Source: a virus. From it: a DNA stretch of 20,578 nucleotides. The position numbers and the translations under genes were made by a program. The stretch lies in the IMG/VR virus record IMGVR_UViG_3300025467_000091, positions 1 through 20,578 of that record; one strand, 5' to 3'. Shown piece after piece: positions 64-6,546 of this stretch. The stretch's first letter is position 1. Every line of letters begins with the position of its first letter. Below the pieces are notes generated by a model. That model searched no databases. It was given only the letters and a program-made list of their open reading frames with translations, and was not told where the DNA came from.

Positions 64-300
64 ATGGTGAACCCGCCGGATGATGTGTTGGATTATTTTT
101 TATATGTATGTGGTCTTCATCAGCGAGTTGTTGATGGTTTAGTTTTTGATTGCGATGATTTGATTGATGTTTTGGTTCAATCTGGTGTTGAGAGTTCGTT
201 GTTATTTAATGAATGGGCTAGACGCGAGGAGTGTCCGTATAGGATGGTTTGTTATGTTGAGTGTGGTGTTGTTCGGTTAGAATTGGGGATGGGCCATTGA
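64..300 (+). CDS. Hypothetical protein, 78 aa, acidic
   Basis: Small protein of unknown function, rich in Asp, Val, Leu and Cys. Its middle (DDLIDVLVQSGVESSLLFNE) looks helical. I do not recognise a family. The ATG at 64 is chosen because a GGGTGG stretch lies five bases upstream. An in-frame GTG at 55 would add three residues and cannot be excluded. The stop overlaps the likely TTG start of the next gene (TTGA at 297-300), so the two are probably translationally coupled. The position just ahead of other small genes might suit a small terminase subunit, which is otherwise missing from the window, but no helix-turn-helix can be argued convincingly, so I make no such call. Coding-strand cytosine is very low. 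Confidence 0.6.
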   Translation: MVNPPDDVLDYFLYVCGLHQRVVDGLVFDCDDLIDVLVQSGVESSLLFNEWARREECPYRMVCYVECGVVRLELGMGH

Positions 301-545
301 TTGCGGAAGTATTGGCGGAGCGTGGCGAGCGGTATGGTTCGTTTAGGGGTCATGCTGAGATTACGCAGGCATTGAAGGATGTGATGAGGTTGTCTCCTAA
401 GTGGGGTGATTTGGATTGTTCGCAGACTGAGGCGTTGGAGATGATAGCGCATAAGGTTGGTCGGATATTGAATGGCGACCCTAATTACGCTGACAGTTGG
501 GTAGATATTGCGGGTTATGCGACGTTGGTTGCGGAGAAGTTATGA
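297..545 (+). CDS. DUF6378-like phage protein, 82 aa
   Basis: The sequence has the hallmarks of the DUF6378 family, small phage proteins of unknown function: an ERYGSFRGHAEIT segment near the N terminus, then EALEMIAHKVGRI and PNYADSWVDIAGYATLV toward the C terminus. In this family the conserved K/R, D and GYA residues lie in helices reminiscent of all-alpha nucleotide-pyrophosphohydrolase folds, but activity is unproven. The start is inferred to be TTG at 297. It overlaps the previous stop, has a GGGGATGGG purine tract just upstream, and puts the conserved region at the usual distance from the N terminus. A GTG at 261 would add 12 unconserved residues read inside the previous gene. The stop overlaps the next ATG (ATGA). 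Confidence 0.75.
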   Translation: MIAEVLAERGERYGSFRGHAEITQALKDVMRLSPKWGDLDCSQTEALEMIAHKVGRILNGDPNYADSWVDIAGYATLVAEKL

Positions 546-706
546 CTGAGACGTATGAGATTAAGATTGAGAGGAACGACACGGAGTTTGAGGTTGTTTC
601 TTATGATTTTCCCGAGGACAGGTTTGGGAAGAAGATGTTGTCTGTATTGTTTGCACAGATAAGCCAGCATTTGCAGGATGAGGTTGAGGCGAGTGAGGGC
701 GAATGA
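542..706 (+). CDS. Hypothetical protein, 54 aa
   Basis: Short acidic protein with no recognised family. The N-terminal half alternates charged and hydrophobic residues (YEIKIERNDTEFEVVSYDF), suggesting beta strands. A short helix (MLSVLFAQISQHLQ) and an acidic tail follow. The ATG at 542 overlaps the upstream stop as ATGA and has a good ribosome site, GGAGAAG at 533-539. A longer version starting at 497 would lie mostly inside the preceding gene and is not favoured. The stop overlaps the next ATG by an ATGA arrangement, continuing the coupled string of small genes. Confidence 0.65.
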   Translation: MTETYEIKIERNDTEFEVVSYDFPEDRFGKKMLSVLFAQISQHLQDEVEASEGE

Positions 707-879
707 TTGATTGGTTATTGAATTGGTTGAAGGTGACGGTTGCTCGTTGGTTATTGGCTGATGAGTTAGAGGCTGAGCGTGTTCGTGACCGTGAGAAGTG
801 GCGACGGCGGCAGGAGATAATTGATGCTAATTATGAGACGACTGATACTGCCGATGACCTTGATAGGGGCGAGTTTTAG
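703..879 (+). CDS. Hypothetical 58-aa protein, possible inner spanin-like partner
   Basis: The protein starts with an amphipathic or weakly membrane-like helix (IDWLLNWLKVTVARWLLA), followed by a highly charged helix rich in Glu and Arg up to about residue 45, and an acidic tail. The last 56 bases are also read in another frame as the start of a signal-peptide lipoprotein. That gene arrangement is the one known for inner/outer spanin pairs (Rz/Rz1). The protein is much shorter than usual inner spanins, and its N-terminal segment contains Lys and Arg, so a spanin role is only an inference. The ATG at 703 overlaps the previous stop. A purine-rich AGTGAGGG tract upstream can serve as ribosome site. 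Confidence 0.6.
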   Translation: MIDWLLNWLKVTVARWLLADELEAERVRDREKWRRRQEIIDANYETTDTADDLDRGEF

Positions 880-1054
880 TTTTGTTGGCTGCAATAGTGT
901 GTCTGAGTATCACGGCGGTTCTTGTCCTAATGTAAGGACTTACAGTCCCGCAGAGCAGAAACGTGCTGCGCAAGAGATCAGGTCTAATCCTAATGGCGAG
1001 TTAGCGCGGATGGTTCGGGATTATGGATTGTTGAGGAAGGCGTGTCGAATTTAA
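824..1054 (+). CDS. Small signal-peptide lipoprotein, outer-spanin-like
   Basis: The N terminus is a classical lipoprotein signal: two Arg at residues 5-6, a hydrophobic core (LILPMTLIGASFSF) and a Cys at residue 23 preceded by F-V-G, a loose lipobox. The mature part has a Cys-Pro (C34) and then SPAEQKRAAQEI, LARMVRDYGLLR and ACR. That pattern resembles small lipoproteins in the lysis regions of alphaproteobacterial phages. The likely role is an outer-membrane lipoprotein acting in host lysis as an outer spanin, or a related envelope function. The ATG at 824 is chosen because AGGAG lies at 812-816, seven bases before it. The gene begins inside the preceding one in a different frame, as Rz1 genes do. 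Family assignment is from memory of similar proteins, not a search. Confidence 0.6.
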   Translation: MLIMRRLILPMTLIGASFSFVGCNSVSEYHGGSCPNVRTYSPAEQKRAAQEIRSNPNGELARMVRDYGLLRKACRI

Positions 1055-1251
1055 GTAAGGCGAGTGGTGAGCGGCGGGCGTTGTTTTCGAGTTGGCCTGC
1101 TGAATATCGCCAAGGTTATGATGACGGATTGAAGCGTCGTTTGAAATATCCGCAAGGTTTTAATGAGTGGGTTTCTAAGCGGCAAGACGCTTATTACGCT
1201 GGCTATAATCGCGGGCGGTTAGATAGGCCTGACGTTAAGGTGCGTCGATGA
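1042..1251 (+). CDS. Hypothetical basic protein with paired GYxxG motifs, 69 aa
   Basis: Arg/Lys-rich small protein. Two similar helical motifs are visible, EYRQGYDDGLKRR (residues 21-33) and AYYAGYNRGRLDR (50-62), both carrying G-Y-x-x-G. Paired GY..G motifs also occur in ribosome-modulation-factor-like small phage proteins, but the match is weak and no function is claimed. GTG at 1042 is the start, with GAGGAAGG just upstream. It overlaps the end of the lipoprotein gene by 13 bases. The stop overlaps the next ATG (ATGA at 1248-1251). Confidence 0.6.
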   Translation: MSNLSKASGERRALFSSWPAEYRQGYDDGLKRRLKYPQGFNEWVSKRQDAYYAGYNRGRLDRPDVKVRR

Positions 1252-1337
1252 AAGATTATCGTCTGTTACTCATTGGAGCGACGCTTGGCCTAATTTGGGT
1301 TGGCGGTGTTCTTCTAATGACATGGATGGTTCTATGA
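1248..1337 (+). CDS. 29-residue single-pass membrane peptide
   Basis: Tiny open frame coding for a charged start (MKDYR) followed by an almost unbroken hydrophobic stretch (LLLIGATLGLIWVGGVLL) that would span a membrane once. The frame is joined by ATGA overlaps at both ends: 1248-1251 with the upstream gene and 1334-1337 with the tail fibre. Very short random frames rarely have such perfect junctions, so a real gene is likely. A holin-like or other lysis-accessory role is possible given the nearby lipoprotein, but this is inference. It could also exist mainly to couple translation into the fibre gene, which lacks a clear ribosome site of its own. Confidence 0.5.
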   Translation: MKDYRLLLIGATLGLIWVGGVLLMTWMVL

Positions 1338-3703
1338 CCGACGATATTAAGAAGGGGCCTGTCCCCAACCCTGCGGCGATTACGACTGTAAATAACAAGA
1401 CGGGAATTACCGTTTGGGTCTTAGGCGATGACATTGGTGCGCCGGGCCGTGAATATCCAGACAACCCCGGCGTTAAGTCAACGCTTGGCGCTGTTAAAGC
1501 TGGCACAAATATTACGATTGCCGCTGACGGAACAATTTCAGCAAGTGGTGGCGGCTCAACTGATTGGTCGCAAATTACCAATAAGCCCGCAACATTTACA
1601 CCACCTATTGCAACGGCGGCTGTTGTCGGCGGCGTAAAGCAGGGAACCAACATTACGATTGGAGCTGACGGCACCATTAGCGCCGCTGGCGGGACTATTG
1701 TTCCAGCAACGCCAACTGTGCTTGGCGGCATTAAAGTCGGAACTGGCCTTAATGTTACGGGTGACGGCACGTTATCGACGCAAGACGCTGTGCCGGATTG
1801 GAATAGCATTATCAATAAGCCAGCCACGTTCCCGGTTGCTATTGCGTCAGCAAGTCAATTGGGTGGCGTTAAAGAGGGCGCTGGTATTAACATTGAACCA
1901 GACGGCACAATTAGCACTGTATCGGCTGCGCCTGAGTGGAATGAGATTTTAAACAAGCCTGTTGCGTTTCCGCCGCCTGTTGCGGCAACCAATGTTCTTG
2001 GTGGCGTAAAGCAGGGCAACGGCGTGTCGATTGGTCCTGACGGAACACTTAGCGCAAACATTCAGCAAGTGGATTGGGACATTATCGTTGATAAGCCGAC
2101 TGCATATCCGCCGACGATTGCTTCTGATACTGAGGTTGGTGGCGTTAAGGCTGGCAACAATATCAGCATTGACATTGACGGCACGATTAATGCGGCTGCG
2201 GTGGATTTGCCAATTGCTTCGACCTATTTGCTTGGCGGCGTCAAGATTGGTGCGGGCATTAGCATTGCAGAAGACGGCACGATTGGAACTGAGGCCAGCG
2301 CGCCATATTGGCTTGACATTGTTGATAAGCCAAAAGCGTTTCCTCCGACAAACGCAAGTGAAGGTGTTGTTGGCGGCATTATGCCTGACAGCAATTTCTC
2401 CATTGCGCCGGATGGTATGATTTCCGCTAAGCCATTTACGGGTGTTCCGTTTGCGGCGATTGCTTATGATGGTTACGGCAAGATTGGCGGTTCAACGACT
2501 GCGACGTTCCTTAACGGCAATCTTATTCTTGGCGGCAGCGCGCCTGTTGTTAAGGAAGACGGCACGTTAGGCGAGACTGTATCGTTTGGCGGTCAGGTTA
2601 CATTGCTTGACCAGACGGGTGCATATCGCGCTGGCATTAAAAACGATAGCTTTGACTATACGCTTCTTCTGACAAATGGCCCGAATGTTAAAGCGGGCTT
2701 TATGCCGTTTGTGACGCAGGTTGATAACGTCGATGTGTCGGTTGCTTTTGGCCCATTGTCTGACGCTATTGGTTACACGACCAAAGCAAAGCTCGGTGTT
2801 GTGCAAGTTGGCAACAATATTGACGTTGATGCGAAGGGTGTTGTCAGCGTTAAGACGACAAGCAAGTCAGACCTTGGCCTTGTTAAAATTGGCGGCGGTC
2901 TGGATGTTGACGCAAATGGTCTTGTTACGCCAAGCCTTGCGACGACTGCGTCTCCCGGCATTGTTCAAATCGGCAAGGGCTTGGAGGTTGATGCAAACGG
3001 CGTGATTAACACGACTGACGCAGTTGGCTTCTTAAACCGCAGGGTTTTTGAAAACAACACATATTACGAAAAGGATTATGATTGGACGTTGCCGGAAGGA
3101 GTTGAGTATTTCCGTGTGACGGTTGTTGGCGGCGGCGGCACTGGTGGCGGCTGGTCGAATAACGCGAATGAAGGTTCTGGCGGCGCTGGCGGCGGCGGCG
3201 GTGCTTATGCCCGTTCAATGTTCTACGGCTACAAGTTTAAGGCTGGCGATGCGTTTAAGGTTCGCGTTGGCTGTTCAAACTACAAAGGATTAGGCGACGG
3301 GACTGAAAGTTATTTCCGTCTTGCAAGTAAGGCATCATCGTATCTTTACTGCGAGGGCGGCAAAGGCGGCGAGAGTGGCTATGTGCAAGGCAGTGAGAAG
3401 AAAGGCTTCACAAAGCCGGGCGACGGCGGTGTTGTGAAAACCGATGGCTTTGACGGCGCAGTAATGTTCAATCTTGATGCAGTGTCAGGCGGCAATGGTT
3501 TGCCGGGACTAAGTGTTACGACGCCGCATGGCCCAAAAACTGTTGGCGGCGCTGGTGGCAGTTCCTTCTTGGGAACATCTGGCGGCACTTTTCCTACCTC
3601 TGGTTATGGCACTGGCGCGGGTGGTGCTGGCGAAGCAAACAACTCTGGCGGTGGCGGCGGCGGCTACGTTGGTCGTGGCGGCGTTGTGATTATCGAGTGG
3701 TGA
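1334..3703 (+). CDS. Tail fibre with shaft repeats and glycine-rich tip, 789 aa
   Basis: Probable receptor-binding fibre. Residues 1-47 form a unique head that likely attaches to the tail. Residues about 51-364 hold eight repeats of the form GGVKxGxxIxIxxDGTIS, most separated by a DWxxIxNKPxxFPP linker. Residues 365-485 are a non-repeated region. Residues 487-560 hold three diverged repeats (LGLVKIGGGLDVDANG). The C-terminal third (about 575-789) is a glycine-rich domain with GGGG runs ending in GGVVIIEW, typical of phage fibre tips that fold with many glycine strands. The shaft repeats resemble those of other trimeric phage fibres. The ATG at 1334 overlaps the upstream stop. An in-frame start at 1295 would lie inside the membrane peptide gene and add 13 unlikely residues. 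The ribosome site is weak, so translation probably depends on coupling. Confidence 0.88.
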   Translation: MTDDIKKGPVPNPAAITTVNNKTGITVWVLGDDIGAPGREYPDNPGVKSTLGAVKAGTNITIAADGTISASGGGSTDWSQITNKPATFTPPIATAAVVGGVKQGTNITIGADGTISAAGGTIVPATPTVLGGIKVGTGLNVTGDGTLSTQDAVPDWNSIINKPATFPVAIASASQLGGVKEGAGINIEPDGTISTVSAAPEWNEILNKPVAFPPPVAATNVLGGVKQGNGVSIGPDGTLSANIQQVDWDIIVDKPTAYPPTIASDTEVGGVKAGNNISIDIDGTINAAAVDLPIASTYLLGGVKIGAGISIAEDGTIGTEASAPYWLDIVDKPKAFPPTNASEGVVGGIMPDSNFSIAPDGMISAKPFTGVPFAAIAYDGYGKIGGSTTATFLNGNLILGGSAPVVKEDGTLGETVSFGGQVTLLDQTGAYRAGIKNDSFDYTLLLTNGPNVKAGFMPFVTQVDNVDVSVAFGPLSDAIGYTTKAKLGVVQVGNNIDVDAKGVVSVKTTSKSDLGLVKIGGGLDVDANGLVTPSLATTASPGIVQIGKGLEVDANGVINTTDAVGFLNRRVFENNTYYEKDYDWTLPEGVEYFRVTVVGGGGTGGGWSNNANEGSGGAGGGGGAYARSMFYGYKFKAGDAFKVRVGCSNYKGLGDGTESYFRLASKASSYLYCEGGKGGESGYVQGSEKKGFTKPGDGGVVKTDGFDGAVMFNLDAVSGGNGLPGLSVTTPHGPKTVGGAGGSSFLGTSGGTFPTSGYGTGAGGAGEANNSGGGGGGYVGRGGVVIIEW
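1484..2425 (+). repeat. Fibre shaft repeat block 1 (8 units)
   Basis: Eight coding repeats begin at 1484, 1625, 1721, 1859, 1997, 2135, 2231 and 2369, judged by the codon that begins each LGGVK/VGGVK motif. Spacings are 141, 96, 138, 138, 138, 96 and 138 bases. The long units carry an extra W-I-KP-FPP segment that the 96-base units lack. The eighth copy is degenerate (GGIMPDSNFSIAPDG). Bases differ between copies although the protein pattern is kept, so the array is old rather than freshly duplicated. Confidence 0.85.
2792..3009 (+). repeat. Fibre shaft repeat block 2 (3 units)
   Basis: Three further repeats begin at 2792, 2873 and 2954, exactly 81 bases (27 codons) apart. They keep the G-V-K/Q-x-G and DxxG-hydrophobic parts of block 1 but lack the linker, and lead directly into the tip domain. 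Confidence 0.8.
3122..3703 (+). other. Glycine-rich receptor-tip domain of the fibre
   Basis: This segment encodes fibre residues from about 597 to the end. It has repeated Gly runs (VVGGGGTGGG, GGAGGGGGAY, GGGGGGYVG) separated by aromatic and polar patches. Such glycine-rich ends occur in several phage fibres and adhesins, where variable loops between glycine strands bind the receptor. This part is therefore the best candidate for the host-range determinant. Confidence 0.7.
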
Positions 3704-3710
3704 GGTTAAA

Positions 3711-3926
3711 ATGACAAACATTCCAAACCCTAATCCTTATGGAAATATTATATCTATTAGCCAATCGGCTAATATGTCTCCTGCTTTGACTGCTTTAACA
3801 GACACGCAATACGTTCTTTGTTGGAACTATAACAAAAATTGCTGGCAAGTTTGGGCTACGCCAGATACGCCAGTAATTGTTGTTCCAAGTGAGGAATTAG
3901 AAGAAAGCTCGAAGGGCAAAAAATGA
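3711..3926 (+). CDS. Hypothetical protein, 71 aa, downstream of fibre
   Basis: Unknown small protein. It begins with an Asn/Pro-rich segment (TNIPNPNPYGN), has a middle with Cys and Trp (YVLCWNYNKNCWQVWAT), and ends with an acidic/Lys tail. No signal peptide or membrane segment is seen. The ATG at 3711 is seven bases after the fibre stop, with GAGG upstream. The position directly after a fibre gene would suit a fibre assembly or tip protein, but there is no sequence support for that. The stop codon lies in the loop of a hairpin that probably ends the transcript. Confidence 0.6.
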   Translation: MTNIPNPNPYGNIISISQSANMSPALTALTDTQYVLCWNYNKNCWQVWATPDTPVIVVPSEELEESSKGKK

Positions 3927-6151: not shown

Positions 6152-6189
6152 AGCCTCTGAGCAATTCAGTTTGCTTGGGGGCTTTTTTT
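6152..6189 (+). terminator. Strong intrinsic terminator before the portal unit
   Basis: A 13-bp stem is formed by AGCCTCTGAGCAA (6152-6164) and TTGCTTGGGGGCT (6171-6183). It uses three G-U pairs, has a 6-base loop and runs into seven T residues (6183-6189). The start codon of the next gene begins at the base after the T-run. Confidence 0.85.
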
Positions 6190-6546
6190 ATGGGCGGAGG
6201 TGGCGGCGGCGATAACGGCATGATGATGATGATGACCATCATGATGATGCAGTCCATGCAGCAAATGCAGCAGCAGCAGCAAGCACAGATTGACGCTCAG
6301 CAAACAGCACAGACGCAGAAACAAGTTTCACAAGTTCAATCAGATGTGCAGGCGAATACATGGGACATGCTTCGCCAGTATGGACAGTCGAATAGCCAGC
6401 AATCTGCGACCGCTGGTAATATGACCAACCCAACATCTTCGTTTATGTCTCCGACGCCTGCGGGCGCTCCACCATTATTGACGGCACTTACAACGGGTAG
6501 TGCTGCCCCTGCCGCTCCTGTCGCTTCTGCTCCGAAGAGTTCGTAA
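6190..6546 (+). CDS. Low-complexity Gly/Met/Gln-rich protein, 118 aa
   Basis: Unrecognised protein of biased composition. It has a six-glycine run after the start, then a Met cluster (MMMMMTIMMMQSM), a Gln-rich helix (QQMQQQQQAQ) to about residue 50, and a Pro/Ala/Thr-rich tail. A short coiled coil or virion-internal linker is possible. Its place between terminase and portal suggests a head-assembly role, but no function can be assigned. ATG at 6190 directly follows the terminator T-run with no good ribosome site. A start at one of the Met codons from 6220 onward is an alternative, though it also lacks a well-spaced site. The portal start is two bases beyond the stop. Confidence 0.55.
   Translation: MGGGGGGDNGMMMMMTIMMMQSMQQMQQQQQAQIDAQQTAQTQKQVSQVQSDVQANTWDMLRQYGQSNSQQSATAGNMTNPTSSFMSPTPAGAPPLLTALTTGSAAPAAPVASAPKSS

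Follow-up and report, generated by a model that had tools for sequence, protein, structure and literature searches.

A repeat-built fibre shaft in an IMG/VR virus record, with length classes assembled from fixed pieces and probable exchange of modules and tips

The stretch of DNA analysed here, referred to as the window, comprises 20,578 nucleotides of the IMG/VR virus record IMGVR_UViG_3300025467_000091 (positions 1 to 20,578) and has a gene order that, as read, is podovirus-like: fibre, terminase, portal (head-tail connector), capsid, tail proteins, and internal virion protein. The fibre gene occupies positions 1334-3703 of the plus strand (stop included) and encodes 789 amino acids from an ATG at 1334, with an alternative TTG start at 1295. 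We take the repeats of this protein to form the shaft of a receptor-binding phage fibre in which the length classes are combinations of fixed pieces and in which modules and the tip are exchanged as units, a reading to which we assign a probability of roughly 0.7.

All of the fibre features lie on the plus strand. An N-terminal segment (1334-1483), from its position presumably the particle-attachment end, aligns with relatives, and its 50 residues before module 1 match no Pfam or PHROG family. In the first of two repeat blocks, cores start at 1484, 1625, 1721, 1859, 1997, 2135, 2231, and 2369, with spacings of 141, 96, 138, 138, 138, 96, and 138 nucleotides (47, 32, 46, 46, 46, 32, and 46 codons); these delimit modules 1 (1484-1624), 2 (1625-1720), 3 (1721-1858), 4 (1859-1996), 5 (1997-2134), 6 (2135-2230), and 7 (2231-2368), and the block ends with the degenerate core of module 8 (2369-2428). 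A non-repeated middle domain (2429-2791) separates it from the second block, where cores start at 2792, 2873, and 2954 (spacings of 81 and 81 nucleotides, or 27 and 27 codons). The second block consists of two 27-codon modules, each a core plus seven codons (2792-2953), and a last core (to 3013) to which seven codons are assigned by analogy (2954-3034). The C-terminal glycine-rich tip (3035-3703) is presumed to be receptor-binding. The spacings had been given in a preliminary description of the window, and module mapping of the open reading frame (ORF) at 1334-3703 reproduced them to the base. A W..I..KP linker is confined to the five long modules (modules 1, 3, 4, 5, and 7, with linker tryptophans at 1565, 1799, 1937, 2075, and 2309, respectively) and is absent from both 32-codon modules (2 and 6) and from the 27-codon modules, as had also been described. 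The proposed classes of 46, 32, and 27 codons hold within the window, except that the first long module has 47 codons, and relatives have further lengths.

The cores stand well clear of the background. Each of the 11, when left out of its own matrix, scored 27.9 to 55.5 bits. In the corresponding leave-one-out runs, the top score among 300 shuffles was 19.3 to 26.5 bits, lower than that of the core in every case, and outside the cores the real fibre protein peaked at 3.5 to 6.6 bits. The weakest core, that of module 8, scored 27.9 bits versus 21.5 for its best shuffle. At the DNA level, six copies share 61-73% identity with the reference copy.

Across the family, a module can be described as a 20-codon core that continues into a 7-codon tail, a 12-13-codon spacer, or a spacer and a W..I..KP..FPP linker, with the 46-codon module corresponding to a 32-like module plus ~14 codons of W..I..KP..FP. 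A census over 12 of the 18 mapped loci, which excluded near-duplicates, a short fragment, and a genome hit, counted 60 distinct modules, with first-block lengths of 32 (10 modules), 33 (1), 44 (1), 46 (32), 47 (2), 48 (2), 49 (3), 50 (1), 80 (7), and 82 (1) codons. The distance from the last linker tryptophan (W) to the next core is 20 residues in 47 modules and 21 in two, the other 11 of the 60 being linker-free; the distance from the core start to the first W varies from 24 to 30 (26 in 32 modules, 27 in 12), and spacers range from 4 to 10 residues. Constant across these modules are the 20-codon core and the W-to-core linker of 20 codons, and the spacer between the two varies. The 80-codon modules of some relatives contain a second W..[VI]..KP segment and an apparent partial core. 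Among four distant named phages examined from the 74 records that match the shaft, three have the short form, with core pairs spaced by 32 residues in Escherichia phage Bas101 and by 34 in both Synechococcus phage ACG-2014i and Eggerthella phage EL753P1; in the latter, one core of the pair is weak (28.2 bits). In Burkholderia phage BcepSauron, the fourth, the two cores are separate, and a Y..L.NKP stretch precedes LPVATTTTLGGVK. The W-form linker occurs in none of the five proteins scanned. Because the short form is seen in three of the four, the long form looks like the short form with a linker added.

Relatives were sampled by IMG/VR scans with the fibre and with its alignment (17 and 20 loci; 26 contigs in total) and with the terminase (36 loci); scans with the fibres of loci L064 and L015 added two contigs, each of which is cut within the gene and is also among the finds of the terminase scan. 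In 18 of the 23 terminase loci scanned upstream (two at 69-73% identity and 16 at 49-56%), the 2-7 kb covered contained no ORF with cores or linkers, and the fibre is therefore either confined to nearer relatives or located elsewhere. A scan of genome contigs returned one locus (L072) with a single core. Module maps of 18 loci resolve six architectures, given here as module lengths in codons: 47-32-46-46-46-32-46 in the window type (125 codons from module 1 to module 4), 49-33-46-46-46-32-46 in L015 (128 codons before module 4), 49-46-46-32-46 in L006 (49 codons), 80-80-46-46-46-46-32-46 in architecture D (L009, L010, L058-L061, and L063; 252 codons), 82-48-49-44-46-46-46-32-46 in L064 (269 codons), and 80-48-50-46-46 followed by a contig cut in L069 (224 codons). 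L070 and L071 agree with architecture D as far as they reach. The comparison of repeat number and order that the preliminary description had suggested thus yields whole-module differences, with 49 to 269 codons before module 4.

The variation stops at a defined point. Length-constant modules begin with module 4, and from there on each of the 12 loci that cover the region, out of 18 mapped, has lengths of 46-46-32-46, module 6 keeping its slot and length in each; several of these 12 are near-identical, and there are seven different sequences among the eight rows used for trees. The module-4 core is 80-95% identical to its partner in L015, L006, L009, L064, and L069. When window modules 3, 4, 6, and 8 are compared with L009, their own slot is the best match (75, 90, 85, and 60% core identity, respectively), and the register of modules 5 and 7 against L009 rests on spacing.

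The gain or loss of modules is most readable in L006, which is without equivalents of L015 modules 2 and 3 (33 + 46 codons). At the L006 junction, the sequence agrees upstream with the module-1 linker and downstream with the module-3 linker, the switch falling in the NKPAT codons of the W..I.NKPAT linker, and one base further on again agrees with module 1. Window module 1 carries the same NKPA codons as L006, and the exact crossover could therefore be a few codons later. Since the L006 shaft is sister to that of L015, a deletion in L006 is preferred over an insertion in the others. In L064, modules 1 and 3 share a 35-nucleotide exact match; across the seven fibres compared, no other module pair has an exact match of more than 17 nucleotides, bar one L069 pair with 20. 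Codon sharing between modules is 51.3% in the window versus 45.3% under permutation (P 0.013), 50.7 versus 45.2% in L009 (P 0.017), and 50.7 versus 44.3% in L064 (P 0.002). Recent tandem duplication within the window was considered and rejected, with the longest intermodule exact match at 14 nucleotides and codon sharing barely above permutation. Codon diversification against slippage was likewise rejected, with a deficit of sharing in none of six fibres (lowest P 0.30) and a small excess in three (window, L009, and L064; P < 0.02). The modules read as old duplicates, and the short modules of the window look like old slots and not recent deletions; the second 32-codon module keeps its slot and length in all 12 covering loci, several of them near-identical, and the length classes of the window are not themselves evidence of deletion there. 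The in-frame deletion or insertion of modules that the preliminary description drew from the length classes is thus found among the relatives (L006 and the shaft lengths), but the short modules of the window are no fresh examples of it. Of the recombination between modules that it proposed looking for, the L006 linker junction and the L064 match are candidate traces, while codon sharing remains close to permutation.

Exchange is also evident at the scale of the whole gene and of the tip. By sliding identity, the window and L003 fibres are 86-100% identical from ~1457 to 3620, bar 75-78% near 2400-2540, versus chance level in the upstream DNA (mostly 31-44%) and 61-83% in the terminase. Because the fibre is near-identical to that of L003 while the upstream DNA is unrelated, the fibre appears to have been exchanged as a cassette. 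The DNA at window 134-1220 is unrelated to both L003 and L013, and the fibre proteins are ~96% identical where aligned. Just downstream of the fibre, window and L003 DNA are again unrelated, with the tips 93-100% identical, and the next window gene (3711-3926) therefore does not travel with the tip. This ORF of 71 amino acids directly follows the fibre and has no Pfam or PHROG match (E up to 0.1); since L003, with its near-identical tip, has unrelated DNA at this place, the ORF seems unlikely to encode a chaperone specific to the tip.

Within the fibre gene, shafts and tips are differently related. L009 is 31-78% identical to the window along the shaft (low where modules are missing) and 96-100% identical from ~2943 to 3210, where its contig ends, while L064 and L015 have a common tip (83-95%) and differ along the shaft. 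The architecture D shaft is joined to a window-like tip in both L009 and L010, and L014 agrees over a shorter stretch. Trees were built from 588 shaft columns and 690 tip columns for eight rows, L009 and L010 being mostly gaps in the tip. The approximately unbiased (AU) test on the tip rejects an L006 and L015 clade (p-AU 1.4e-72) and an L009, L010, L058, and L064 clade (3e-13), and the test on the shaft rejects L064 with L015 (5e-74) and the window with L003, L009, and L010 (2.7e-4); the groups were chosen after the identities had been seen, and the p-values are descriptive. The middle domain tree groups the rows like the shaft at its main split. The AU tests and sliding identity agree in giving the parts of this gene conflicting histories, and the alignments place the exchange of tips in or beside the last 27-codon repeat.

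The assignment to a receptor-binding fibre draws on family matches of the tip. Residues 581-787 match Gly_rich_2 (PF21722) at 29 bits, above the gathering cutoff of 24.3, and the tip also matches PHROG 863 (tail fiber assembly) and PHROG 6202 (tail fiber protein), both in the tail category. Over 2450-2791, the middle domain has no Pfam match (E up to 10) and no PHROG match (E up to 0.01), and NCBIfam gave no credible match to the fibre. Against 50,697 phage records, the whole fibre had no match at E 1e-5. With the limit at E up to 1, the middle domain plus tip again had none, and the shaft alone matched the 74 records noted above, the best at ~1e-4 among the 40 listed. PHROG 38707 and PHROG 9625, families whose function is not described, match the repeat (E 2.5e-37 and 5.5e-34, five stretches each). 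In the PDB, searched at E up to 1, neither the alignment A1 profile nor the L064 fibre had a match. The module profile matches collar fibre gp4 through the linker (9d93; E 0.00047 for the whole chain, 0.083 for the best single stretch) and, weakly, one stretch of R2-type pyocin (6ct8, E 0.23; 6cl6, Tail fiber protein, E 0.36).

That pyocin stretch, FYWNALPGKPATFPPSA, resembles the window linker, though the match is weak. The R1 and R2 pyocin fibres are described as having a homotrimeric slender shaft with a repeated helix-plus-turn motif, variable linkers, and Rod and Shaft domains, with a repeating structure that permits adjustment of fibre length and with evolution by motif duplication (PMC6116203). 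The matched stretch (~544-561) would fall in the Shaft domain (529-598 in PMC6116203) if the chains end at residue 691. The pyocin repeat, however, is described there as very short and identified only in structure (PMC6116203), and the 20-residue core repeat is not in the match. A second likeness is to the phi29 head fibre gp8.5 (3qc7, 6qvk, PF11133), in which the segment PYSLPAATTTTLGGVKKG resembles the window approach to each core. The gp8.5 protein has 280 amino acids, an N-terminal capsid-binding base of two small beta-barrels, and a helix-turn-helix stem (PMC6542822). Compared with gp8.5, the window fibre has a glycine-rich tip, and a gp8.5-type base was not detected in the window protein. 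Duplications in the T4 tail fibre adhesin were reportedly described by Tetart in 1996. In-frame fibre duplications of 1.8 kb that arose during an experiment are recounted for Enterococcus phage EfV12-phi1 (PMC6365445), and the exchange of whole host-recognition modules between phages for Alteromonas phages A5 and V22 (PMC10579305). These systems and T4 differ from the window in their sequences and repeat units, the window modules being short and diverged. Repeat-based length change and fibre exchange are already described (PMC6116203, PMC6365445, PMC10579305), and gain, loss, or swapping of whole parts is a known route of evolution for many phage fibres.

A rival reading puts the protein on the head (capsid) or neck and not on the tail, with the repeat a stalk usable anywhere on the virion. 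An FP..IAT...LGGVK segment in the profile of modules 4-8 weakly matches the phi29 capsid fibre (6qvk, E 0.037; 3qc7, E 0.26), and PF11133 reaches 14.9 bits on the fragment 1484-2449, below its cutoff of 24.6, and is not listed for the whole fibre protein at E up to 0.1. The window fibre alone weakly matches a chain named head fiber protein gp29/gp21 at the same segment (7qof, E 0.053), alongside an unrelated T-cell receptor chain (0.11), and head-and-packaging families PHROG 2163 (E 9.6e-7), 4366 (0.00095), and 20838 (0.0016) fall on the shaft. Further, a Wifcevirus protein with the 32-residue module pair sits between head genes, passes PF11133, and matches 3qc7 at E 0.0024. This protein, from Bas101 (L084 2632-3552), is annotated as a tail fibre, and at least three of the listed matching records annotate the gene as head fibre. 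A place on the head nonetheless seems unlikely for the window fibre: its tip matches the tail-category families PHROG 863 and 6202 and Gly_rich_2, and at 789 residues, with a separate exchangeable tip, it is far longer than gp8.5 with its 280 (PMC6542822).

Two other explanations concern how the differences arose. Drift and small indels within modules, with no recombination between modules, would fit the slots kept by modules 3, 4, 6, and 8, the near-permutation codon sharing, and spacers that drift from 4 to 10 residues; such an origin of the module lengths is improbable given the whole-module differences in count, the mixed L006 junction, and the 35-nucleotide match in L064. The differences in module number and tip could instead be chimeras of metagenome assembly, since assemblers break at a repeated, shared gene, and 18 of the 26 contigs end inside the fibre gene (9.35 expected), versus 1 of 20 for the terminase (6.0 expected; the set being those of the 36 loci at at least 69% identity) and 3 of 22 for the portal (8.0 expected). 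The null for these counts assumes random, independent ends, whereas several contigs are near-duplicates and detection is biased, and it is poorly calibrated, both controls lying below expectation (P 0.005 and 0.013); the count omits the two cut fibre contigs from the later L064 and L015 scans. The excess is suggestive of a locus that varies between populations. Chimeric assembly appears distinctly improbable as the source of the differences, because the two linkers that meet at the L006 junction have, in L015, no more than eight identical bases in common, short for a k-mer join (L015 not necessarily being the true parent of L006), architecture D recurs in nine contigs that carry different sample numbers (L009, L010, L058-L061, L063, L070, and L071), and the D shaft with a window-like tip is seen in L009 and L010, with L014 in agreement over its shorter stretch.

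Several observations weigh against the fibre as a shaft of exchangeable modules. Window modules 5 and 7 match their own L009 slots at 60% each and other slots at 65% and 75%, and because of these better matches elsewhere the slot-by-slot orthology is not clean. The one clear two-module difference is a single contig, L006, which starts within the gene and contains an in-frame stop. With the exception of the named phages and a single weak genome hit, the relatives that carry the fibre are metagenome contigs, and many of these end within the gene, as counted above. Matches to solved structures are short and, for the most part, weak, with unrelated proteins among them (two flagellar FlgF chains on the core, 0.037 and 0.16; pullulanase, 0.24), and the weak shaft matches to head-fibre families PHROG 4366 and 20838 bear on the virion position. 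AlphaFold2 monomers are low in confidence, with a mean predicted local distance difference test score of 36.5 when the whole protein was modelled (14 rows) and 43.4 when modules 4-8 were (11 rows). At these scores the models speak neither for nor against the flex points raised in the preliminary description. The low-confidence model of modules 4-8 has a strand-turn-strand at 46, 46, 32, and 46 spacing, with short strands flanking a turn in the cores, and this agreement with the repeat spacing is a hint only. The in-frame stop itself (L006/L028 789-791, contig 3300032227_000531) follows the first shaft block and may be a broken gene, a sequencing error, or a real truncation. Away from the fibre, the terminase-portal interval of the window (6175-6546) holds an ORF with a Met/Gln-rich run, MMMMMTIMMMQSMQQMQQQQQ.

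On balance, we favour a receptor-binding fibre, probably a homotrimer. Its repeat unit would consist of the 20-residue core, for which a strand-turn-strand hairpin is weakly predicted, and of a P.IAS-like stretch leading into the core that follows; long modules would have the W..I..KP..FPP segment inserted ahead of this stretch. The three classes would then be a core with a short tail (27), a core with a spacer (32), and a core with both spacer and linker (46). The particle-proximal shaft would gain and lose whole modules, with the one readable junction in a linker, and the lengths nearest the middle domain would stay constant; the last 27-codon repeat would mark the boundary at which C-terminal tips, presumably the parts that bind the receptor, are exchanged between shafts. 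Module number may also set fibre length, as the preliminary description proposed: the number does differ among relatives, and an effect on the actual length or flexibility of the fibre is presumed. More tentatively, and with less than even odds, the gene may be divided into zones, a variable proximal shaft with crossovers in its linkers, a fixed 46-46-32-46 stretch with the middle domain, and a last 27-codon repeat that is a standard adapter for tips. If this division is true, the linker and the last repeat would be kept partly since they make recombinants that still fold. Together the relatives form a natural series in which a single fibre varies in module number and, separately, in its tip. 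Such a series could help to find out whether adsorption depends on shaft length and whether short structural repeats act as joints in the exchange of receptor-binding tips.

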